NCBI RefSeq assembly: GCF_001955695.1
Contig: NZ_CP019236.1
Span: 4,898,001-4,962,000 of the forward strand
Direction of reading: 5' to 3'
Source: Rhodoferax koreense
GTDB taxonomy: Bacteria > Pseudomonadota > Gammaproteobacteria > Burkholderiales > Burkholderiaceae_C
Length of the DNA: 64,000 nt
Positions within the stretch are counted from its first letter, which is position 1; every line of letters begins with the position of its first letter. Below are positions 8,575-43,549 of the stretch, piece by piece. The notes below the pieces were generated by a model. That model worked only from the letters and a program-made list of their open reading frames with translations. It did no database searches and was not told the DNA's origin. A program made the translations under genes and the position numbers.

Positions 8575-10029
8575 ATGGCCACGCGCATCGAGCATGACGC
8601 CTTCGGCCCGGTCGAGATTCCGGCCGACCGCTACTGGGGGGCGCAGACCCAGCGCGCACTCGGCGTCTTCGACATCGGCCACGAGCGTTTCCCGGTCGGC
8701 CTGGTGCGCACCCTCGGCCTGCAGAAGATGGCCGCCGCGCGGGCCAACCTTCGCTGCGGGGTCTTGCCGGCGGAACTGGCCACGTCCATCGTCTCGGCGG
8801 CCTCGGAGTTGAGCCGCGGGCTGTTCGACCAGCACTTTCCGTTGACGGTCTGGCAGACGGGCTCGGGTACTCAGACCAACATGAACGCCAACGAGGTCAT
8901 CGCCAACCGGGCCAACGGCCTTCTCGGGCAACCCCTGGGCACCAAGTCGCCGGTGCATCCCAACGACCATGTGAACGCCTCGCAGTCGTCGAACGACAGC
9001 TTCCCGACGGTCATGCATGTGGTGACAGCGCTGGAACTGGAACGCCGCTTGAAACCGGCGCTCGCGTTCCTGCGCGACGCCTGGGCGGAACGCGCGGTAG
9101 CCTTCGCCGACGTGCTGAAGATCGCCCGCACACACCTGATGGACGCGGTGCCGATGACGTTGGGCCAGGCCTTCGACGCGTTCGCGCGGCAGGTCGGGCA
9201 CGGCGTCGACCGCATCGACGCCACGATGCCCCGGTTGCTGTCGCTGCCGCAGGGCGGCACCGCGGCTGGCACGGGCCTGAACGCGCCGCCGGGATTCGAC
9301 ACTTTCTTCTGCGAAGAGATCAGCGCACTGACTGGCCTCGCCTTCACGCCGAACCCCAGCAAGTTCGAAGGCATGGGCGCCCACGATGCGCTGGTCGAAG
9401 TATCGGGGGCCCTCAATGTCATTGCCACGTCGCTGGTGAAAATGGCCAACGACCTGCGGCTCCTGGGCTCGGGCCCGCGGTGCGGCCTCGGCGAACTGGC
9501 ACTGCCCGATGACGGCCTGACGAGTTCGATCATGCCCGGCAAGCGCAACCCGACCATTGCCGAGGTCCTGGTCCAGGCAAGCCTGCAGGTGATGGGCAAC
9601 CATTTCACCGTGACCATGGCCAACGCTTCGAGCAACTTCGAGCTCAACGTGGCCAAGCCGCTGCTGATCCACAACCTGCTGCAGTCGATCGAACTCCTGA
9701 GCGACGGCTGCAGCGTCTTCGCCGAGCGCATGGTACGGGGCATCGGCATCCACGAGCGCCAGCTTGCCGCCAATGTGGACAACAGCCTCATGCTGGCCAC
9801 CGCGCTCAACACCGAGATCGGCTACGAGAAGGTGGCGCAGATCACCCGGACCGCGTTGGCGCAGGGCATTGGCACCCGCGCGGCCTGCATTCAGCTGGGC
9901 CACCTGAGCGGCGAAGACTACGACCGGCTCGCCGATCCCTGGCGCATGGCCGTCGGGCCATCGCCCACCCGGGCGCGCCCGCATCCTGACGCCGCAGCGC
10001 CCTCACTCCCGGTGGACGGCCCCCGCTGA
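8575..10029 (+). CDS. Class II fumarate hydratase-like lyase
   Basis: 484 residues, close to FumC in length. Conserved regions are QTGSGTQTNMNANEVIANRA (about 94-113), NASQSSNDSFPT (134-145), RTHLMDAVPMTLGQ (185-198), GGTAAGTGLN (227-236), LGSGPRCGLGELALP and the signature SSIMPGKRNP (317-326). Most fumarases have GKVNP in the signature, so the arginine is unusual. The C-terminal ~25 residues (after WRMAVG) are proline/alanine-rich and not part of the fold. It starts 3 bp after the preceding receptor gene. Activity on fumarate/malate or on a substituted analogue are both possible. Its 3' end overlaps the convergent dehydrogenase gene by 27 bp. Confidence 0.82.
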   Translation: MATRIEHDAFGPVEIPADRYWGAQTQRALGVFDIGHERFPVGLVRTLGLQKMAAARANLRCGVLPAELATSIVSAASELSRGLFDQHFPLTVWQTGSGTQTNMNANEVIANRANGLLGQPLGTKSPVHPNDHVNASQSSNDSFPTVMHVVTALELERRLKPALAFLRDAWAERAVAFADVLKIARTHLMDAVPMTLGQAFDAFARQVGHGVDRIDATMPRLLSLPQGGTAAGTGLNAPPGFDTFFCEEISALTGLAFTPNPSKFEGMGAHDALVEVSGALNVIATSLVKMANDLRLLGSGPRCGLGELALPDDGLTSSIMPGKRNPTIAEVLVQASLQVMGNHFTVTMANASSNFELNVAKPLLIHNLLQSIELLSDGCSVFAERMVRGIGIHERQLAANVDNSLMLATALNTEIGYEKVAQITRTALAQGIGTRAACIQLGHLSGEDYDRLADPWRMAVGPSPTRARPHPDAAAPSLPVDGPR

Positions 10030-11238
10030 AGCCGTTCCATGCGCGGCCTCCCCTGTGTGGCGCGCACCGAAGATGGCCTCCGGCTCGTACAACGCATCCG
10101 CCGTGACGCGCGCCACGGCCGGCAGCCCGCACAGTCGCAGCGTGCGCACCAGCTCGTCGCGCAGGATGTCGATCGAGCGCGTGGCGCCGGCTTCGCCCTG
10201 CGCACACACGCCGTAGAGGGCGGGCCTGCCGATCAGTACCGCCTTGGCGCCCAGGGCCAGGGCCTTGACGATGTCGCTGCCGCGACGGATGCCGCCGTCC
10301 ACCATCACGTCGGCGCGGTGGCCCACCTCTGCCACGATGGCGGGCAGCGCGGTGAGGCTGTCCACCGCCGCATCCAGCTGGCGCCCGCCATGGTTCGAGA
10401 CGATCACGCCGTCACAGCCGATATCAACCGCGCGGCGTGCATCGGCGGCACGCAGGATGCCCTTGACGATGAGCTTGCCCCGCCACGCGTCGCGCAAGGC
10501 GTCGAGATCGTGCCAGCCGAACGCGGGGTCGAATTCACGGCCGACCGAAGAAGCCATCTGCGATGCATCGGCCGCGGTATCGGCCAGCCCGGCCATGTTC
10601 TCCAGGACCGGCACGCCGTGCCAAAGCATGTCGAGGGCCCAGGCGGGCCTCGACGCGAAGTCGAGCACGTTGCGCGGCGTGTACCGGAAAGGCATGGCGA
10701 AGTCGTTGCGCAGGTCCCGTTCGCGCTTGCCGCCGACCGGCACATCCACCGTGAGGACCAGTGCCTCGAATCCCGCGGCGCGCGCCCGTTCGACGAGACG
10801 CACGGCCGCGTCCCGCCGCTTCAAGGGGTAGAGCTGGAACCAGAGGCGGCCGCCCACGTCGCCGATGCGCTCGATGGATGCCGTGCCCGTGGTCGAAAGC
10901 ACGTAGGGAATGCCGGCTTTCGCCGCCGCCCTGGCGAGATCGACGTCACCCCCGCGTCGGCCGAATCCGACAGCTCCCATGGGCGCAATGCCCAGCGGCA
11001 GGGCCACTGTTGCGCCGAGGAGGCTCGCCGCCGTGTCCACCGTGCCGACGTCCACCAGCGCCCTGGGCAGCAGCCGCACGCCGCCGAACGCTTCCCTGTT
11101 CGCGCGCAGGCTCGTCTCGTCTTCCGCACCGCCCTCATAGAAGTCGTAGACGGCGCGTGGCAGACGGCGCCTGGCCAAGGCGGCGAGATCGTCGATCGAA
11201 AACGCGCGGTCCAGGCCGCCCCGCATGCGCGACGGCAT
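10003..11238 (-). CDS. FMN-dependent alpha-hydroxy-acid dehydrogenase (LldD-like)
   Basis: 411 residues from ATG 11238, which overlaps the stop of the upstream receptor gene as ATGA. It is a TIM-barrel FMN enzyme of the L-lactate dehydrogenase / glycolate oxidase / mandelate dehydrogenase family. Seen are YDFYEGGAEDETSLRANREA near the N-terminus, LPLGIAPMGAVG, LSTTGTASIE, the active-site block VSNHGGRQLD with the catalytic histidine, and the FMN-phosphate loop VMVDGGIRRGSDIVKALALG. It oxidises a 2-hydroxy acid to the 2-oxo acid. It is the last gene of the long leftward operon that begins at 20197. The exact substrate is not determined. Confidence 0.88.
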   Translation of the reverse strand: MPSRMRGGLDRAFSIDDLAALARRRLPRAVYDFYEGGAEDETSLRANREAFGGVRLLPRALVDVGTVDTAASLLGATVALPLGIAPMGAVGFGRRGGDVDLARAAAKAGIPYVLSTTGTASIERIGDVGGRLWFQLYPLKRRDAAVRLVERARAAGFEALVLTVDVPVGGKRERDLRNDFAMPFRYTPRNVLDFASRPAWALDMLWHGVPVLENMAGLADTAADASQMASSVGREFDPAFGWHDLDALRDAWRGKLIVKGILRAADARRAVDIGCDGVIVSNHGGRQLDAAVDSLTALPAIVAEVGHRADVMVDGGIRRGSDIVKALALGAKAVLIGRPALYGVCAQGEAGATRSIDILRDELVRTLRLCGLPAVARVTADALYEPEAIFGARHTGEAAHGTASAGAVHRE

Positions 11239-12215
11239 CAGCGCTTCACGCCCTTGGCCATGCGCACCAGGGCGCCTGCGGCCTCCCGGTCCTGCTTGAG
11301 GAAATCGGCGAATTCGCCGGGCGAGTCGACGGCGGGCTCGACATAGCGTGCATCCATGAACTCGATCATCTTGGGGTCGGAAAACACCGCGTTGAACTCG
11401 GCATTGAGCCTGGCCACGATGGCGGCCGGTGTGGCCGCCGGCGCAGCGATGCCCCACCAAGGCCGCGAGGGGAAGCCGCCCAGGCCGGCCTCGCCGATCG
11501 TCTGCACGTTCGGCAGCTGCCTGGACCGCTGGGCCGTCGAAACCGTCAGGGCCCGCAATTGCCCGGCCTGGACCAGGCCGATGAAGTTGCCCAGGCCCAT
11601 TTGCCCGACCTGGATCTCACCGGCCGTGACGGCATTGGCGATCGGCGCGCCGCCCTTGTACGGGACGCCGATGATCTGCGTCTTCCACTCGCTGTTGAGC
11701 CAGGCAACGAACAGTTCCTGCAGCGACCCCTCGCCGAGCGTGCCCAGGTTCACGCCGTTCGGATGCTTGAGCGCATAAGCCTTGAGGTCGGCGACGCTCT
11801 GCACCGGCAGCGCGGTGGGCACGACGATGGCCTCGGTCACGAAGAACAGCCGCCCCACGGGCGCGAAATCGGTCGCGGGGTCGTAGGGGAGCTTGTCGAA
11901 CATGAAGGGGTTGAACGACATGGTCGAGTGGTAGACCGCGCAGATGGTGTAGCCATCCGCGGGCGCCTTCGTACAGGCTTCCGCGCCGACGATACCGCTC
12001 GCGCCGGGGCGGTTGTCGATGATGAGCGGCTGCCCCAGCCGCTGCTGCAGGGCGGGCACGGCCGCGCGCAGCACCACATCGGTCACGCTGCCCGCCGCGA
12101 TCGGCACGACCAGCTTGATGGGTTTGGACGGATAGGTCTGCGCGTGGCCTGCGGACGCCAGCCATGCGGCGCCGACGAGGGCGAGCGCCCGAAGAGAAAG
12201 CCTGATGGATCGCAT
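11238..12215 (-). CDS. Bug/TctC-type substrate-binding protein
   Basis: 325 residues with a signal peptide (MRSIRLSLRALALVGAAWLA, cleaved after GHA before QTYPSKPI). The hallmarks are IKLVVPIAAGSVTDVVLRAA, IIDNRPGASGIVGAEA, ADGYTIC and VPYKGGAPIANAVTAGEIQ. It should bind a carboxylate in the periplasm. A good ribosome site (GAAGGAGAC) precedes the start. It overlaps the following dehydrogenase gene by 4 bp, so the two are translationally coupled; the ligand may be related to that enzyme's hydroxy-acid substrate. This is inference from position. Confidence 0.9.
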   Translation of the reverse strand: MRSIRLSLRALALVGAAWLASAGHAQTYPSKPIKLVVPIAAGSVTDVVLRAAVPALQQRLGQPLIIDNRPGASGIVGAEACTKAPADGYTICAVYHSTMSFNPFMFDKLPYDPATDFAPVGRLFFVTEAIVVPTALPVQSVADLKAYALKHPNGVNLGTLGEGSLQELFVAWLNSEWKTQIIGVPYKGGAPIANAVTAGEIQVGQMGLGNFIGLVQAGQLRALTVSTAQRSRQLPNVQTIGEAGLGGFPSRPWWGIAAPAATPAAIVARLNAEFNAVFSDPKMIEFMDARYVEPAVDSPGEFADFLKQDREAAGALVRMAKGVKR

Positions 12216-32992: not shown

Positions 32993-33148
32993 CGATGCTC
33001 CTTCGGGTGCCATGCGGCAGCTGCATGATAGCGGCAGCCCGTCGCCGCTTCGTTTGCGGAGTCCGGTCGGGACAAGGCATGATCCAACGCAAGTCCACGC
33101 GCGCGCACGGGACTAGACTGCGTCTTTGTACCTCCGAGGATGCCTTTG

Positions 33149-35536
33149 ATGACCGCTTCGCCAGCCCTGTCGGAAACCACCTCGCGCCATGAAGACTTCG
33201 CGCTGCTCGACGCCTGGTGGCGCGCCGCCAACTACCTGTCCGTCGGCCAGATCTACCTGATGGACAACCCGCTGCTGCGCGAGCCGCTGACCCGCGCGCA
33301 CATCAAGCCGCGCCTGCTCGGCCACTGGGGCACGACGCCCGGACTCAACTTCATCTACGCGCACATGAACCGCGCCATCCGGGCGCGCGACCTGGACACG
33401 ATCTTCATCGCGGGACCAGGGCACGGCGGGCCCGGCATCGTGGCCAATACCTACCTGGAAGGTACCTACAGCGAGGTCTACCCCCATGTCACGCCGGATG
33501 CGGAAGGCCTGCGGCGGCTGTTCACGCAGTTCTCGTTTCCCGGCGGCATCCCGAGCCACGTGGCGCCCGAGACGCCGGGCTCGATCCACGAAGGCGGCGA
33601 ACTCGGCTATGCGCTGCTGCACGCCTTCGGCGCGGTGTTCGACAACCCCGACCTGCTGGCGTGCTGCGTGATCGGCGACGGCGAGGCCGAGACCGGCGCG
33701 CTGGCGGCAAGCTGGCATTCCAACAAGTTCCTGAACCCGGCGCGCGACGGTGCGGTGCTGCCCATCCTGCACCTCAACGGCTACAAGATCGCCGGTCCGA
33801 CCGTGCTCGCCCGCATCGGCGAAGAACAGTTGACGCAGCTCATGCGTGGTTATGGCTACGAGCCGCGCTACGTGACCGGCGACGAGCCTTTCGCCATGCA
33901 CGTCGCAATGTCCGAGGCACTCGACGCCGCGCTCGACGAGATCCGTGCGCAGCAGCGTGAGGCGCGGGCCAGCGGCTTTCGACAGCGGCCACTCTGGCCC
34001 ATGATCGTGTTGCGCTCGCCCAAGGGATGGACGGGCCCGAAGGCGGTCGACGGCGTCCCGATCGAAGGCAGCTTCCGCGCGCACCAGGTGCCGCTGACCG
34101 GTTTCGACGAACATCCCGCGCACGTCGCGCTGCTCGAGGCGTGGATGCGCAGCTACCGGCCCGAAGAGCTGTTCGATGCCCAGGGCGCGCTGCGCGCGGA
34201 CATCGCCGCCCAGGCACCGCTCCCGACGCGGCGCATGAGCGCCAATCCCCATGCGAACGGCGGTCTCCTGCTCAAGGACCTGGCGCTGCCCGACTTCCGC
34301 GACCACGCGCTCGCGGTGCCGCTGCCCGGGCAGGTGCGCGGCGAGGCCACACGCACCTGCGGCACCTTCCTGCGCGAGGTGATGCGGCTGAACGCCGCGC
34401 ATGCCAACTTCCGCGTGATGGGCCCGGACGAAACCGCATCGAACCGGCTCGGTGCGCTGTTCGATGTCACCGACCGCATGTCCACGGCCGAGATCCTGCC
34501 CGGCGACGATCACGTCGCGCCCACGGGCCGCGTCATGGAGGTGCTGAGCGAGCACCTCTGCCAGGGTTGGCTCGAGGGGTACCTGCTGACCGGGCGGCAC
34601 GGATTCTTCTCCTGCTACGAGGCCTTCATCCACATCATCGACTCGATGTTCAACCAGCATGCCAAGTGGCTGAAAGTGACGCGCCACATTCCCTGGCGGC
34701 GGCCCATCGCCTCGCTGAACTACCTGCTCACCAGCCACGTCTGGCAGCAGGACCACAACGGCTTCAGCCACCAGGATCCGGGCTTCCTGGACCACGTCGT
34801 CAACAAGAAGGCCGAGGTGGTGCGTGTGTACCTGCCGCCGGACGCCAACACCCTGCTCTGCGTCACCGACCACTGCCTGCGCAGCCGCAACTACGTCAAC
34901 GTGATCGTGGCCGGCAAGGCGCCGGCGCTGCAGTGGCTCGACGTCGAAAGCGCAGCCCGCCATTGCAGCGCCGGACTGGGCATCTGGGACTGGGCCAGCA
35001 ACGACGCGGGCACCACGCCGGACGTGGTGATGGCCTGCGCCGGCGACGTGCCGACGCTCGAGACCCTGGCTGCCGTCGACCTGCTCCGCCACCGGCTGCC
35101 CGAGCTCCGGGTACGGGTGGTGAACGTCGTCGACCTGATGGCGCTGGAGTCGCCGGCATCGCATCCGCACGGCCTGTCCGACGCGGCGTTCGATTCCATC
35201 TTCACGACCGACACACCGGTGATCTTCGCCTTCCACGGCTACCCGTCGCTGGTGCACAGGCTCACCTACAAGCGGGCCAACCACCGCAATTTCCACGTGC
35301 ACGGCTACCGCGAGGAAGGCACGACGACCACGCCGTTCGACATGACGGTACTCAACGAACTCGACCGCTTCCACCTGGCGGCGGCCGCCATCGACCGCGT
35401 CGACCGTGTGCGCAACGTGGCTGGCCACCTGCAACAGCATCTGCGCGACCGGTTGCTGGCGCACCGCGCCTACGTCAATCGCCACGGCGTGGACATGCCC
35501 GACATCTCGGGCTGGACCTGGCCTGCCGGCCGTTGA
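33149..35536 (+). CDS. Phosphoketolase (xylulose-5-P / fructose-6-P)
   Basis: 795 residues from ATG 33149 (GAGG nine bases upstream); an ATG at 33140 is also in frame. It cleaves xylulose 5-phosphate, and possibly fructose 6-phosphate, with phosphate to acetyl phosphate plus an aldose phosphate, using thiamine diphosphate. Family blocks seen are [34 protein letters not shown], the cofactor motif [48 protein letters not shown] and a C-terminal transketolase-like part. The acetate kinase gene follows 10 bp downstream, so acetyl phosphate can be turned into acetate and ATP. Confidence 0.95.
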
Positions 35537-35546
35537 GGGGCCGCCC

Positions 35547-36776
35547 ATGACAATGCCCGCCCGCGCCAAGCATGGCGCGATCGTCGTTCTCAATGCCGGC
35601 TCGTCCAGCGTCAAGTTCGCCGCATTCGCCTGCGAGCCGGACGCGGCGGAGGTCGCCGAAAGGCTGCTGCATGGCGAGATCGACGGTACCGGCGCATCGG
35701 CGAAGCTGGTCGCCTGGAAGGACGATGGAACGCCGCTGTCGGGCGAGGATCTGATGGCGGCGGAGGCGAAGGCCGGGCACGACGCGCACGCGCTCGGCCT
35801 GCTGTTCGGCTGGCTGAAGCGGCAACTGCCGGACCATCGCGTGCGCGGCGTGGCGCACCGCGTCGTGCACGGCGGCGAGCGCTTCACGCGCCCCGTGCGC
35901 GTGACGCCGGAGGTGCTCGCGCAGCTCGAGGCGCTCGTTCCCTTGGCGCCGTTGCACCAGCCGCACAACCTGGCCGCGATCCGGGCCATCGCCCAGATGG
36001 CCCCGGCCTTGCCCCAGATCGCGTGTTTCGACACGGCCTTCCATGCCGGGCAAGACTGGGTGGCCCAGGCGTATGCACTGCCGCGGCATATTCGCGATGC
36101 GGGGGTGCGGCGCTACGGCTTCCACGGCCTGTCGTACGAGTACATCGCAGGCGCATTGCCGGCCCGGCTCGGCCCCCAGGCCGAAGGGCGGATCGTGGTC
36201 GCGCACCTGGGCAACGGCGCCAGCCTGTGCGCGCTACGCGCGCGCCGCAGCGTGGCCACGACGATGGGCTTCACCGCGCTGGACGGCCTCGTCATGGGCA
36301 CGCGCTGCGGCAGCCTCGATCCGGGCGTCGTGCTCTACCTGGCCCGCGAGATGCACCTGAGCCCGGCCGGGATCGAGAAGCTGCTGTACCAGGAGTCGGG
36401 GCTGCTCGGCGTCTCCGAAATTTCCTCGGACATGCGCACGCTGGAGGACAGCGCCGACCCCCGCGCCGCGGCGGCCATCGACCTGTTCGTGCACCGCATC
36501 GGCCGCGAGCTCGGCAGCCTGGCGGCGGCGCTCGGCGGCATCGACGCGCTGGTGTTCACCGCGGGCATCGGCGAACACAGCCGCACCGTGCGCCAGCGCG
36601 TGTGTGAGGGCGCGGCCTGGCTCGGCCTCGAACTGGACGAAGCGGCCAACCAGGCCCATGCGGCGCGCATCAGCACGCCGGGCAGCCGGGTCTCGGCCTG
36701 GGTGATACCCACCAACGAGGAATTGATGTTGGCCAGGCACGCCCAGGCCCTGCTGGCGGCAAAAAACAACCGTTGA
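35547..36776 (+). CDS. ackA: Acetate kinase
   Basis: 409 residues from ATG 35547 with GAGGGG six bases upstream. It transfers phosphate between acetyl phosphate and ADP. Signatures in order: VVLNAGSSSVKFAAF (phosphate/ATP site), AHRVVHGGERF, ACFDTAFHAGQD with the catalytic aspartate, RRYGFHGLSYEYIAG, VVAHLGNGASLCALRARRSV, DGLVMGTRCGSLDPG and FTAGIGEHSRTVRQRVC. Length and order are normal. It forms a two-gene operon with phosphoketolase, an arrangement typical of a bypass that makes ATP from pentose phosphates. Confidence 0.95.
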   Translation: MTMPARAKHGAIVVLNAGSSSVKFAAFACEPDAAEVAERLLHGEIDGTGASAKLVAWKDDGTPLSGEDLMAAEAKAGHDAHALGLLFGWLKRQLPDHRVRGVAHRVVHGGERFTRPVRVTPEVLAQLEALVPLAPLHQPHNLAAIRAIAQMAPALPQIACFDTAFHAGQDWVAQAYALPRHIRDAGVRRYGFHGLSYEYIAGALPARLGPQAEGRIVVAHLGNGASLCALRARRSVATTMGFTALDGLVMGTRCGSLDPGVVLYLAREMHLSPAGIEKLLYQESGLLGVSEISSDMRTLEDSADPRAAAAIDLFVHRIGRELGSLAAALGGIDALVFTAGIGEHSRTVRQRVCEGAAWLGLELDEAANQAHAARISTPGSRVSAWVIPTNEELMLARHAQALLAAKNNR

Positions 36777-37001: not shown

Positions 37002-37766
37002 ATGTATTTGCGCAGGAATTTCAACAGTTCGAAGCTGGTTCGTTTGCTCGGCGATGCCTCTGCGGTCGACGCCGACACGAGCCGGCAGGACATCGCCGAA
37101 CGGCTGAGCGCCTGGGTCGGCGTGTTCGACTCCGTGACGCTGCACGCGGCGCACCAGTCGATCCGCGCGGTCGTATCCGCCGACCGCGCCGAGCCGCCCT
37201 CCGCCCGCGCGCTGGCGTTGCAAGAGCAGGTGCACCGCGTGCGCTCGGTACTGGAGAAGGCGATCACCACCAACGAGGTGGAAGCCGGCGGCGACCGACG
37301 CAGCCGGCATGCGGCCGGGCCGGTCGAACCGACGCCGGAAGAACAGGCCGACTTCGCGCCGCAGCGCCAGCGCTACCTCGACCAGCAGCGCAACATGGAC
37401 CTGATGATCGGCCCGCTCCGGGCCAATTTGCGCGAAGCACTAGCGGCGGCCTCGCCGCGGCTGCGGCAACTTGCCGCGCTCGACGCGGTGTGGGAGCAGA
37501 TGCTCGAGCCGCACGAAAGAAGGTTGCTGCCCACCATGCCGGGGTTCCTGGAGCGGCGCTTCCAGCAACTGCGCAACGACCACGCGCAGGACGACCCAGC
37601 CGCGTGGCGACGGCCCGGCGGCTGGCTCGACGTGTTCGACCGGACGCTGCAGGAAGTGCTGCTGGCCGAGCTCGACGCCCGGCTGCAACCGGTGATGGGC
37701 CTGATGGAAGCATGGAACAGCGGCGCAAGCCGCCACAGCAATAAAGAGGTTGAGAAGCACCCATGA
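37002..37766 (+). CDS. DUF3348 family protein, first gene of the stator-like operon
   Basis: 254 residues from ATG 37002 (MYLRRNFNSSKLVRLLGDAS); a GTG at 36966 is in frame but lies before the hairpin. Soluble, helical, without signal peptide or membrane segment. Charged helices dominate (ALALQEQVHRVRSVLEKAIT, LRQLAALDAVWEQMLEPHER), ending in a helix rich in L, D and R. I recognise it as the DUF3348 type found beside DUF802 genes in Burkholderiales, from memory. Its stop overlaps the next start (ATGA at 37763). No function is known; coupling to the membrane pair suggests a cytosolic partner. Confidence 0.75.
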   Translation: MYLRRNFNSSKLVRLLGDASAVDADTSRQDIAERLSAWVGVFDSVTLHAAHQSIRAVVSADRAEPPSARALALQEQVHRVRSVLEKAITTNEVEAGGDRRSRHAAGPVEPTPEEQADFAPQRQRYLDQQRNMDLMIGPLRANLREALAAASPRLRQLAALDAVWEQMLEPHERRLLPTMPGFLERRFQQLRNDHAQDDPAAWRRPGGWLDVFDRTLQEVLLAELDARLQPVMGLMEAWNSGASRHSNKEVEKHP

Positions 37767-39934
37767 ACAGGATTGTCTTTGCCGCCGCCTTCGCCATCGG
37801 TCTGTTGACCGTGGCCTGGGTCGGCGTGGGTTTCGCGGGCGTGAATGCACTGGCCCTGCTGATGACGGCGGTGATCGCCGCGGTGTACCTGCTCGGCGCG
37901 TTCGAGCTCAGGCAGTTCCGCGCGGCCACCACGGCGCTGGCCACCGCGCTGGCCGAGGTGCCGCAGCCGCTTGGCGACACCGGCGCCTGGCTGGCCCGTG
38001 TGCCGGCCTCGCTGCAGAACCCGGTGCGCCTGCGAATCGAGGGTGAACGTGTCGCCCTGCCCGGCCCGGCGCTCACGCCCTACCTGGTCGGCCTGCTGGT
38101 GATGCTGGGCATGCTGGGCACCTTCCTCGGCATGATCGTCACCTTCAAGGGTGCGGTGTTCGCGCTCGAAGGCTCGACCGACCTGCAAGCCATGCGCGCG
38201 GCGCTGGCCGCACCGATCAAGGGCCTGGGCCTGTCGTTCGGCACCTCGGTGGCCGGTGTGGCGGCCTCGGCGATGCTCGGCCTGCTCTCGGCGCTGTGCC
38301 GGCGCGAACGGCTGGCCGTCGCGCGCCAGCTCGACAGCCTGGTGGCCACGGTGTTCCGGCCCTTCTCGCTCGGCCATCAGCGCCAGCGGGCCTTCAAGGC
38401 GCTCGAGGTGCAGGCGCAGGCGCTGCCGCAAGTCGTCGACCGGCTGCAGGCCATGATCGAAGGCCTTGAGCGCCGCAGCCAGCAACTCGATGCGCAGCTG
38501 CTCGCGCGGCAGGACCAGTTCCACCGTGACGTGGGCATCGCCTACACCGGCCTGGCCGACAGCGTGGGCGCTTCGCTGAAGGACAGCCTCGCGGCCGGTG
38601 CACGCGCCGCGGGCGAGAGCATCAAGCCGGTGGTCGAGGCCGCGATGGCCGGCGTCGCCGCCGAATCGCAGCGCCTGCACCAGCGGCTGTTCGATGCCAC
38701 CCAGGCGCAGTTGACCGGCCTGTCAGACGCATTCGGCAGCACCGCGCGCGGCGTCTCCGATGGCTGGGCCACGGCGCTGCAGACCCATGCCGACACCAGC
38801 GCGGCGCAGGTGGCGCAACTGGACCGCGCCCTGCTCGCGTTCAACCACGCCTTCGAACAACGCTCGGCCGCACTGCTGGCCCGGGTCGAAGAGACAGCGG
38901 CACGGTCGCAATCCGACCAGGCCGCCGCCGACCAGCAGCGGCTGCAGGGCTGGACGCGCAGCCTCGAAGCCATGGCGGCCACGCTGCGCGACGACTGGCG
39001 CGAGGCCGGCGCCCAGAACCTGGCGCAACAGCATGCCGTGTGGGCCAAGCTGGAGAAGACCATCGGCGACATTACCGAACGCGCCAGCCAGCAGGCCGAA
39101 CGCACGCTCCACGACACGGCCCGGCTGCTCGCGCAGTCCGAGGAACTGATCAGCGCGCGCATCGCCGCCGAAGCCGGCTGGGTGCAACAGCACGGCGAAC
39201 GCATGGAGCAGCTCGCCGGCCTGTGGGGCAGCGAAATCGGCACCCTGCGCAGCGACGAAGCCGCACGCGGCCAGGCTGCCCTGGACCGCCTCGCCGAACT
39301 GCAGGCCGCCCTCGCCGATCACCTGGCCACACTCGGCAATGCGCTCGAGGCGCCGATGACGCGGCTCATGCAGACCGCCGCCGAGGTGCCACAGGCCGCA
39401 GCCGGCGTCATCACCCAGCTGCGCGAGGAGATGGCGCGGCTCGGCGAACGCGACAACCGGGCGGTCGAAGAACATGCGGTGCTGGTCGAGAAGATCGGCG
39501 GCTTGCTGCAGACGCTGAACCAGGCCTCGGGCGAGCAACGCGCCGCCATCGAGTCGCTGGTGGCCTCCGCCACCACGGTGCTCGACCAGGCGGCGAGCCG
39601 CTTCTCGGCCACGCTGCAAGCGCAGGCCGGCGCGGCCTCCGACGTGGCGGCACAGGTCGGCGGCAGCGCGATCGAACTCGCGGCACTGGGCGAGGCCTTC
39701 AACCATGGCGTGACCCTGTTCAGCAGCAGCAACGAGAAGCTCATGGACGGCCTGCAGCGCATGGAAGCCGCACTCGGGCAATCCGCCGCGCGCAGCGACG
39801 AACAGCTGGCCTACTACGTGGCGCAGGCGCGCGAGGTCATCGACCTGAGCATGAGCTCGCAGCAGCAGATCGTGGAAGACCTGCGCCGGCTGCGTGGCGC
39901 CCAGCGCGCGGTGGCCGAGGACAGCGCGGAATGA
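37763..39934 (+). CDS. DUF802 / MotA-TolQ-ExbB-like membrane protein with long coiled tail
   Basis: 723 residues. Four membrane helices are visible: about 3-23, 27-46, 105-128 (TPYLVGLLVMLGMLGTFLGM) and 152-178 (GLGLSFGTSVAGVAASAMLG). The third carries LGMLGTFLGMI, very like the conserved pore helix of MotA/TolQ/ExbB and ZorA proteins. From about 200 to the end the protein is a long alanine/glutamine/glutamate-rich helical tail with coiled-coil character and repeated A-x-x-R/L patterns. It overlaps the OmpA-domain gene by ATGA. I infer an ion-driven stator subunit with a long intracellular tail. Annotated relatives carry the name DUF802. Confidence 0.78.
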   Translation: MNRIVFAAAFAIGLLTVAWVGVGFAGVNALALLMTAVIAAVYLLGAFELRQFRAATTALATALAEVPQPLGDTGAWLARVPASLQNPVRLRIEGERVALPGPALTPYLVGLLVMLGMLGTFLGMIVTFKGAVFALEGSTDLQAMRAALAAPIKGLGLSFGTSVAGVAASAMLGLLSALCRRERLAVARQLDSLVATVFRPFSLGHQRQRAFKALEVQAQALPQVVDRLQAMIEGLERRSQQLDAQLLARQDQFHRDVGIAYTGLADSVGASLKDSLAAGARAAGESIKPVVEAAMAGVAAESQRLHQRLFDATQAQLTGLSDAFGSTARGVSDGWATALQTHADTSAAQVAQLDRALLAFNHAFEQRSAALLARVEETAARSQSDQAAADQQRLQGWTRSLEAMAATLRDDWREAGAQNLAQQHAVWAKLEKTIGDITERASQQAERTLHDTARLLAQSEELISARIAAEAGWVQQHGERMEQLAGLWGSEIGTLRSDEAARGQAALDRLAELQAALADHLATLGNALEAPMTRLMQTAAEVPQAAAGVITQLREEMARLGERDNRAVEEHAVLVEKIGGLLQTLNQASGEQRAAIESLVASATTVLDQAASRFSATLQAQAGAASDVAAQVGGSAIELAALGEAFNHGVTLFSSSNEKLMDGLQRMEAALGQSAARSDEQLAYYVAQAREVIDLSMSSQQQIVEDLRRLRGAQRAVAEDSAE

Positions 39935-40593
39935 CGGGCCTGGACAGCCAGGTGGACGGCCTGGACGATGGCCTGGAGCAGACCGCACCGGTATGGGCCG
40001 TGTTCGGCGACCTGATGTCGGGCCTGCTCGGCGCCTTCGTGCTGATCCTGGTCGGCGTGATGGTGGTGCAGATGGACCTGGTGGCGAATCTGCAGGCCGA
40101 GGTGGGCAAGCGCCAGGTGGAGGAACAGCGCCGCGTGGCCCTGGAGAAGGCGCTGGCCGGTCCGCTGGCAGCGGGCCGCGTCACGCTCAACAACGGCCGC
40201 ATCGGCATCAGCGGCAACGTGCTGTTCCCGCTGAATTCCGACCAGTTGCGGCCCGACGGCCGGCAGTTGCTGAAAAGCCTGGTGCCGCCCCTGCAGGTGT
40301 ATCTGGGCGAACGCGACGACATGCTGATGGTCAGCGGCTTCACCGACGACCGCGCGATCCAGCCGGGCAACCAGCGTTTCGCCGACAACCTCGACCTGTC
40401 GGCCCAGCGCGCCCTCACCGTGACGCGCGCCCTCATCGAGGAAGGCATGCCCTCCTACCGCGTGTTCGCGGCGGCCTTCGGTGCCGAGCAGCCGGTGGCG
40501 GCCAACACCAGCGAGAACGGCCGCGCGCTGAACCGGCGCGTGGAGATGGCGCCGGTGCCGAGGTCGTCGGACGCCAAGCCTGCGAAGCCATGA
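39931..40593 (+). CDS. MotB/ZorB-like OmpA-domain protein
   Basis: 220 residues. A short N-terminal cytosolic part is followed by one membrane helix, VWAVFGDLMSGLLGAFVLIL (about 21-40), with aspartate D27 in the place of the proton-carrying aspartate of MotB/ExbD/ZorB. After a ~40-residue linker comes an OmpA-type peptidoglycan-binding domain (about 92-207): LMVSGFTDDRAI, NLDLSAQRALTVTRALIEEG and GRALNRRVEM. The usual HTD of this motif is FTD here. It is coupled to its neighbours by overlaps at both ends. I infer the peptidoglycan-anchored stator partner of the DUF802 protein. Confidence 0.8.
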   Translation: MTGLDSQVDGLDDGLEQTAPVWAVFGDLMSGLLGAFVLILVGVMVVQMDLVANLQAEVGKRQVEEQRRVALEKALAGPLAAGRVTLNNGRIGISGNVLFPLNSDQLRPDGRQLLKSLVPPLQVYLGERDDMLMVSGFTDDRAIQPGNQRFADNLDLSAQRALTVTRALIEEGMPSYRVFAAAFGAEQPVAANTSENGRALNRRVEMAPVPRSSDAKPAKP

Positions 40594-41243
40594 GCGACCG
40601 GCTTCAGGCGCTGCGGGAGCAAGGCGCGCAGCGTCTCGATCCCACGCGCTTCCATTACCTGGAGGTGCTGGCCAGCCGGCTGCCTGAGGCACCCGAGCGC
40701 GTGAGGCCGACGCTCGAAGACAAACTCCAGGAGGCCGTGGCCGAATACGAAGCGCGCTTCGCCCAGGCGGCCGATGCCGCACGCGGCCAGGTGGCCGAAC
40801 TGTTCGCCGCCCGCCCCGAGCTCGCGCGGGAACTGCGCCGGCTGTTCAAGGCAGGCGACTTCAAGGCGCTGGGCAAGCTGCGCCCGAGCGCACCGCGGCC
40901 GATGGCCGAACTCAACCGCCACATCCGCGGCGTCACCGGCCAGGACGCGGATGCCGAGATGAAAAGCGTGCGCCGCTTCTTCGAGGTGTGGTCCAGAATG
41001 GCGGCCGTCGACCAGGTGGAACAGGCCGTGGGCCGCGGCCCCGAAAAGGCGGGGCCGCTGAACTCGCACATGCTGGTGCTGAATTCGCTGGCGCTGATGC
41101 GAACCCTCTCGCCGAGTTACCTGCGGCGCTTTCTGTCGCATGTGGACACGCTGCTGTGGCTCGACCAGCAGGGCCAGAAGCCGATGCCGGTCGAGGCCAA
41201 GGCCAAGCCCCCGGCAGCGCGCCGCGCCCGCCCGAAAAAATAG
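40590..41243 (+). CDS. DUF2894 family protein, last gene of the stator-like operon
   Basis: 217 residues, soluble, no signal peptide. Helical N-terminus (LQALREQGAQRLDPTRFHYL, EVLASRLPEAPERVRPTLED), a middle region FKALGKLRPSAPRPMAELNR, a conserved-looking PLNSHMLVLNSLALMRTLSP and YLRRFLSHVDTLLWL, and a basic tail ending RRARPKK. I recognise it as the DUF2894 type that accompanies DUF802/OmpA genes. Its start overlaps the OmpA-domain gene (ATGA at 40590). Function unknown; the coupling implies that it works with the membrane pair, probably on the cytosolic side. Confidence 0.72.
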   Translation: MSDRLQALREQGAQRLDPTRFHYLEVLASRLPEAPERVRPTLEDKLQEAVAEYEARFAQAADAARGQVAELFAARPELARELRRLFKAGDFKALGKLRPSAPRPMAELNRHIRGVTGQDADAEMKSVRRFFEVWSRMAAVDQVEQAVGRGPEKAGPLNSHMLVLNSLALMRTLSPSYLRRFLSHVDTLLWLDQQGQKPMPVEAKAKPPAARRARPKK

Positions 41244-42457: not shown

Positions 42458-43549
42458 TCAGGGAAGCTGGTCGAAGCCTGAGATGTCCAGCCCGAATTCG
42501 TCGCGCGCAGGCGTGGACGAATATTCCTTGAGCCGGTTGTACAGCGTCTTCAGGCTCAGGCCGAGCGCGGCGGCGGTGCGCTCCTTGTGCCGGCCGTAGT
42601 GTTCGAGCGTGGCCAGGATCAGCTGGCGTTCGACCTCGGCCAGCGGCGTGCCGATGCGGAAGGTGAGCGCCGTTGCGACGCCCCGCCCGGCCCGGGGCGC
42701 TTCCCGCCAAGCCTGGCCGACCGGCAGGCATTCGTCGAACACGATTTCATCCTGGGCCATCACGTAGGCCCGCTGCACGATGTTGCGCAGTTCGCGCACG
42801 TTTCCTGGCCAGCGGTAGTCGGCCAGCCGCTCCAGCGCCACAGGCGCGAAACGTTTTGTCAGCCCTTCGCGGCGCGCGATTTCGGCCAGGAAGTGGGTCG
42901 CCAGCAGCGCAATGTCCTCGGCGCGCTCGCGCAGCGGCGGCATGTGGATCGGAAACACGTTGAGTCGGTACAGCAGGTCTTCACGCAGGCCGCCGGTGGC
43001 CACGGCCTGCAACGGATCACGGTTGGAAGCGGCAATCAGACGCACATCGGCCTGCTGCTGCTGGGTTGCCCCGACGCGCATGAAGCTGCCGGTCTCGAGC
43101 ACGCGCAGCAGCTTGACCTGCAGGTCCAGCGGCATCTCGGTGACCTCATCGAGGAACAGCGTGCCGCCGCTGGCCCGCTCGAAAAAGCCCTGGTGCTGGC
43201 GCTCGGCACCGGTGAAGCTGCCTTTCTCATGCCCGAAGATTTCGCTTTCCATGAGGTGCGGCGAGATCGCACCGCAGTTGACGGCCAGGAAGGGTTGGCC
43301 ACGGCGCCGGCTCAGGTCATGCACGGTGCGCGCCACGAGTTCCTTGCCCGTGCCGCTTTCGCCGGTGACGAACACCGTGACCGCCGTGTCGGACACCCGC
43401 GTGATCTGCTCGTACACCCGGCGCATCGGCGCCGAGCGGCCCCACAGGAGGCCGAAATGGCCGTCGGCCTCCGGCACCGTGCGCGACGCCACCGGCGGCA
43501 GTCCGATGGGACCGCGACGTAGAAGACGATCGTCGGGTGAAATCGCCAA
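42458..43549 (-). CDS. Sigma-54-dependent activator without sensory domain
   Basis: 363 residues. Only about 35 residues precede the AAA+ domain, so no receiver, GAF or PAS sensor is present. Walker A GESGTGKE (63-70), the sigma-54 loop GSFTGA (110-115, a known variant of GAFTGA), Walker B GGTLFLDEVTEM, the arginine-finger region RLNVFPIHMPPLRER and the C-terminal Fis-type helix HYGRHKERTAAALGLSLKTL are visible. A -35-like TTGACC stands upstream on the minus strand. It activates unknown sigma-54 promoters, possibly under a partner protein, as PspF does. Confidence 0.85.
   Translation of the reverse strand: MAISPDDRLLRRGPIGLPPVASRTVPEADGHFGLLWGRSAPMRRVYEQITRVSDTAVTVFVTGESGTGKELVARTVHDLSRRRGQPFLAVNCGAISPHLMESEIFGHEKGSFTGAERQHQGFFERASGGTLFLDEVTEMPLDLQVKLLRVLETGSFMRVGATQQQQADVRLIAASNRDPLQAVATGGLREDLLYRLNVFPIHMPPLRERAEDIALLATHFLAEIARREGLTKRFAPVALERLADYRWPGNVRELRNIVQRAYVMAQDEIVFDECLPVGQAWREAPRAGRGVATALTFRIGTPLAEVERQLILATLEHYGRHKERTAAALGLSLKTLYNRLKEYSSTPARDEFGLDISGFDQLP

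Follow-up and report, generated by a model that had tools for sequence, protein, structure and literature searches.

The stretch of DNA analyzed here (the window) covers 64,000 nucleotides of the Rhodoferax koreense genome (NZ_CP019236.1, positions 4,898,001–4,962,000, forward strand), and we are highly confident that it holds an ordinary and complete anti-phage operon of Zorya type III with a ZorAB motor, a confidence that covers both the identification and the motor reading. Four genes run head to tail on the + strand between positions 37002 and 41243, with an ATGA overlap at all three junctions. The set is already known, and the window carries one more copy of a described defense system. 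All four encoded proteins match PADLOC Zorya type III models across most of their length. The first gene (37002..37766, +) encodes a DUF3348 protein of 254 amino acids (PDLC00658, E = 1.5e-70; Pfam PF11828, E = 9.9e-67). It is followed by type III ZorA (37763..39934, +; 723 residues; ZorA3, E = 7.9e-260 over residues 1–718), type III ZorB (39931..40593, +; ZorB3, E = 1.9e-108; OmpA domain PF00691, E = 7.8e-16) and a DUF2894 protein of 217 amino acids (40590..41243, +; PDLC00652, E = 6.5e-55; Pfam PF11445, E = 7e-52). An earlier reading of the bare sequence (the original prediction) had proposed this overlapping operon and named the families DUF3348, DUF802, OmpA and DUF2894; the coordinates and the Pfam matches bore it out. 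The start of the DUF3348 gene is uncertain, because the database copy of the protein has 252 residues against the 254 given by the ATG at 37002, and a TTG at 37008 is possible. A promoter scan of the locus found nothing.

Besides the ZorA3 and ZorB3 matches and the adjoining DUF3348 and DUF2894 genes, the operon shows features common to Zorya as a whole, namely the ZorB residue Asp27 and, on the same protein, a predicted OmpA-like domain of peptidoglycan-binding type. The non-motor proteins matched only the type III partner models (PADLOC, E ≤ 1), and neither ZorC, ZorD nor ZorE of types I and II was found among them; the PADLOC scan of ten neighboring genes detected no Zorya component. Weak to moderate matches were obtained with the PADLOC ZorA1 and ZorB1 models as well, and the NCBIfam ZorA model matched the window ZorA at E = 3.5e-7, with 29.6 bits against a model cut-off of 100.

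Payne et al. (2021, PMC8565338) gave the name Zorya type III to 6,401 loci in which a pair of motor genes is flanked by DUF3348 and DUF2894. These are the same four families in one operon, and we found no difference of substance from the window operon, the names alone differing. The motor pair is printed there as zorBC, and the discussion has ZorA and ZorB. Published usage gives DUF3348 as ZorF and DUF2894 as ZorG (Payne et al., 2021; Mariano et al., 2025), in conflict with PADLOC-DB 2.0.0, where the two are reversed (DUF3348 as ZorG3, DUF2894 as ZorF3). The original prediction had held that the partner genes were foreign to Zorya and that the motor might be undescribed. Both claims fall, because Zorya type III has been named in print with DUF3348 and DUF2894 as its defining partners (Payne et al., 2021) and the PADLOC models match all four genes. 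In E. coli, the cloned operon of Stenotrophomonas nitritireducens significantly reduced plaque formation by at least one phage (Payne et al., 2021). In phage-infected Burkholderia cenocepacia, a change was reported for only the first gene or first two genes of the operons of Zorya I and III, and Zorya is absent from the systems that this study calls transcriptionally active (PMC12584637). Among the titles listed in searches of the open-licence literature, no paper dealt with the mechanism of Zorya type III.

The ZorA sequence divides into a MotA-like membrane module (residues ~1–200) and a tail of ~500 residues. Hydrophobic windows are unbroken over residues 1–50, enough for two helices, and recur at ~103–133 and 157–179, a pattern consistent with four helices. 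Conservation is highest in the pore-lining region (0.95 at residues 101–125) and reaches 0.91 at residues 151–175. The ZorA profile matched chain C of the solved structure 8vvn (E = 0.0013), which contains five copies of an A-like chain and two of a B-like chain; the chain matched is the five-copy one. The ZorB profile matched 8vvn chain B over positions 10–204 (E = 4.4e-9) and 8qyd chain F over positions 12–202 (E = 3.9e-7), in both cases from the membrane helix through the OmpA domain. We take 8vvn and 8qyd to be Zorya complexes from their chain make-up, the names reported by the search tool being those of membrane or MotA/MotB-like proteins. Together with the PADLOC matches, these results uphold the proposal of a ZorA/ZorB-type stator with a long intracellular tail and an OmpA-domain partner.

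ZorB has one strong hydrophobic segment (residues 28–46) with Asp27 directly ahead of it, in agreement with the single helix that had been predicted for this protein. Asp27 is invariant in 16/16 aligned proteins, and a motif finds it in 91 of 95 ZorB sequences. The conserved aspartate of the transmembrane helix is the residue tested by Mariano et al. (2025, PMC11890865) as D24N. The NCBIfam model NF006547 gives a strong equivalog match to the window ZorB (357.8 bits, cut-off 194), yet carries the name "hypothetical protein".

The long tail of ZorA is where the second gene had been called a DUF802 protein with four helices and a tail of ~500 residues. The helices and the length stand, and the family name does not describe the motor, as DUF802 covers just 53 residues of the tail (320–372; 38720..38878, +; Pfam PF05650, E = 8.2e-12). 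Among ZorA relatives one to five copies of DUF802 occur at varying spacing, for example in G145 (five copies), G225 and G004. Between the pore motif and the tip of the tail, the 72 measurable ZorA sequences (of 95) have 382 to 859 residues. Given this range and the variable copy number, the tail probably changes length partly through gain and loss of DUF802-type segments, perhaps by segment duplication. Its most conserved segment is a short motif near the C-terminus, DEQLAYYVAQARE, which lies within residues 676–700 (39788..39862, +; mean conservation 0.91); the 25-residue blocks between residues 301 and 675 score 0.39–0.71 (80 aligned of 95). In this profile gaps count against conservation, which lowers the middle of the tail, and the 80 rows were picked partly for holding a looser form of the tip motif; the tip value is therefore favored, as the profile took only sequences with that form. 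The strict motif is present in 89/95 ZorA sequences; of the remaining six C-termini, five differ from it at a single residue and the sixth (L103) is broken by masked bases. A 79-sequence count of the tip was left unused, as its regular expression selects for DEQLAYY itself. A smaller ZorA alignment took 12 of 16 available sequences.

Gene order was examined in 80 named loci, the best of at least 566 confirmed relatives. The order DUF3348-ZorA-ZorB-DUF2894 on one strand is kept in 73 of them, and the other seven lack the 5′ genes, six at a contig end where the frame runs off the contig start and one (L152) with only a ZorA fragment. An in-frame start lies near the upstream stop at the three successive junctions in 67/73, 76/79 and 78/80 cases. 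Among 17 loci of relatives, 15 have the four-gene set; one exception is cut at a contig end and the other is a marginal hit in G111 without the genes. The four-gene arrangement is not due to chance. When 250 genomes were sampled evenly across the order (all genome counts include the R. koreense genome itself), DUF802 was found in 12 genomes, DUF3348 in 13 and DUF2894 in 12, with all three together in 11. Genomes with a single family had marginal scores (G111, DUF802, 22.5 bits; G016 and G149, DUF3348, 23.6 and 26.7 bits; G171, DUF2894, 22.8 bits). The original prediction had called for a co-occurrence survey, and this one found the three DUF families together. No conserved fifth gene was seen in the 8 kb flanks of the 80 named loci, using frames of at least 100 amino acids and at least 35% similarity over 60% of the longer frame; the largest cluster of similar frames had 8/80 members, all upstream. 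A short, fast-changing or distant fifth gene would be missed, because of these size and similarity limits and because some contigs end within the flank.

The two partner proteins were predicted by AlphaFold to be all-helical, with no strands in either model. For the DUF3348 protein the mean predicted local distance difference test score (pLDDT) was 82.4 and the predicted template modeling score (pTM) 0.76, the first 30 residues being poorly predicted; for the DUF2894 protein these values were 80.2 and 0.51. Comparison of the two profiles showed no similarity between them (probability 0.45%). The DUF3348 alignment held 62 rows (50 of the 120 homologs among the matches listed, out of 478, together with 11 loci and the window copy), and that of DUF2894 held 52 (39 of the 120 homologs among the matches listed, out of 555, together with 12 loci and the window copy). 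These alignments bear on a first alternative, that the two partners form a new DNA-cutting effector as ZorE does in Zorya II, which we regard as unlikely. In its favor, Asp161 and Glu223 of DUF3348 are invariant in all 62 selected rows, and single members of the DUF2894 alignment match exonuclease VII (E = 0.37) and a HerA-type helicase domain (E = 0.24) in Pfam. We read these DUF2894 matches as coiled-coil noise. Against it stand the strandless models and the two alignments, in neither of which any Lys or His reaches 90% conservation. Neither partner has a convincing Pfam match to a nuclease or helicase family, and Pfam matches beyond their own DUF are weak and confined to at most 3/62 DUF3348 members (25 of 33 families viewed) and 4/52 DUF2894 members (all 23 families); one DUF3348 row matches FliT at E = 0.026. 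By sequence or by Foldseek, no solved structure was matched at E ≤ 0.001 by either partner.

A second alternative, which we consider less probable still, is a vertically inherited housekeeping motor linked to the envelope, with an incidental effect on phage when overexpressed. The surroundings of the operon and its presence in 7/8 genomes of the genus (scored by DUF802) would suit it, the window neighborhood being metabolic and regulatory (phosphoketolase, acetate kinase, esterase) and without recognized defense genes. Beyond the genus the distribution is patchy. Of 299 genomes in the family, 87 gave a DUF3348 match (86 above the family cut-off), and in the sample of 250 from the order each of the three DUF families was found in only 12–13. 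Just two pairs in the genus, G003/G005 and G002/G007, have several flanking genes in common (flanks of ~8 kb or less). The plasmid collection also includes 27 records with ZorB relatives, of which 20 are predicted to be non-mobilizable and 7 to be mobilizable; the 15 among the matches listed are 0.37–2.6 Mb long. The related operon reported by Payne et al. (2021) reduced phage plaquing in E. coli. In the viral contigs a pattern picked out 32 stretches, none of which encodes a ZorB relative, and in the phage records there was a single, partial OmpA match (39.7% over 57%). The patchy distribution and the varied flanks fit a defense module better than a core motor.

The suggestion of the original prediction that this is a novel stator with no relation to Zorya has next to no chance of being right, for although the NCBIfam ZorA score is below its cut-off and the best NCBIfam ZorB model is a "hypothetical protein", all four genes match Zorya III models strongly and the set is named Zorya type III in print (Payne et al., 2021).

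Some observations do weigh against identifying the operon as a Zorya type III system with a ZorAB motor and non-catalytic partners. The match of ZorA to a solved structure is weak, and many general MotB/OmpA proteins outscore the Zorya-like entries on the ZorB profile (best 3khn, E = 1.1e-17). The DUF2894 model is only fair by its pTM, fold comparison of the partners gave no informative match, and a helical fold is compatible with an unusual enzyme; the invariant DUF3348 acidic residues and the single-member DUF2894 matches given above count on the same side. PADLOC matches occur in 2/10 neighboring genes, to a generic AAA-HTH (helix-turn-helix) part and a generic kinase part, and as both are generic we see no defense island in the ten scanned neighbors.

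The genes flanking the operon differ within the genus. Three genes near the window copy resemble flank genes of G003/G005 at 29–39% identity and are read as paralogs, and one gene next to the operon of G004 is similar to window positions 10003–11460 (332 bits), 26 kb from the window operon. Among 11 relatives, close relatives of the neighboring esterase were found only in G211 (81%) and G178 (68%). Phosphoketolase is present in just one of the 11 (G002), on a contig other than that of its operon, so that the neighborhood looks accessory. In the window, the phosphoketolase and acetate kinase pair (33140–36776) lies directly upstream of the operon. At 42458–43549 there is a sigma-54 activator with AAA and HTH domains, whose PADLOC match to RtcR-type CARF proteins covers only the AAA-HTH part of those models. 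ARAGORN placed a tRNA-Glu of 91 bases at 11487–11577 on the − strand, inside a likely coding frame (11238–12215), and this call may be a false positive.

Taking the operon as Zorya type III, a mechanism can be proposed for its motor by analogy with Zorya I and II. An ion-driven motor in the inner membrane would be built of five ZorA and two ZorB, in which ZorB may detect disturbed peptidoglycan through its OmpA domain, and ion flow past Asp27 would then rotate ZorA together with its long cytoplasmic tail. The DUF3348 and DUF2894 proteins may be non-catalytic, helical adaptors and read out the motor at the conserved tip of this tail; either ion flux or a host factor that is recruited would then bring about defense. 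This readout is much less certain than the motor reading, and we give it about an even chance. The tip motif is a candidate docking site for the adaptors.

Like the window operon, Zorya I and II have a ZorA/ZorB motor with a long ZorA tail and a ZorB of peptidoglycan-binding type (Mariano et al., 2025). They differ in carrying ZorC with the helicase-domain ZorD, or the nickase ZorE, where the window has two helical proteins without a convincing enzyme domain. The flagellar stators MotA/MotB and PomA/PomB share the general architecture, and the OmpA domain of the ZorB profile matches solved MotB and PomB. Unlike them, ZorA has a long cytoplasmic tail, and its operon partners have no meaningful match to a flagellar family.

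As a discovery the locus is of low interest, and its interest for the mechanism of Zorya is moderate. Zorya I and II use DNA-acting partners, and a type III system without a recognizable one poses a concrete question of mechanism. A tentative answer, which we think possible but somewhat short of probable, is that Zorya III defends without a DNA-cutting subunit of its own, that the two all-helical adaptors dock at the near-invariant tip of a ZorA tail whose length is free to vary, and that the effector is torque, ion flux or a recruited host nuclease. If this is true, type III would either lack the nuclease-like complex that has been proposed for every Zorya subtype or obtain it from the host. 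The conserved tip of the ZorA tail offers a definite place at which the transfer of the motor signal can be probed.

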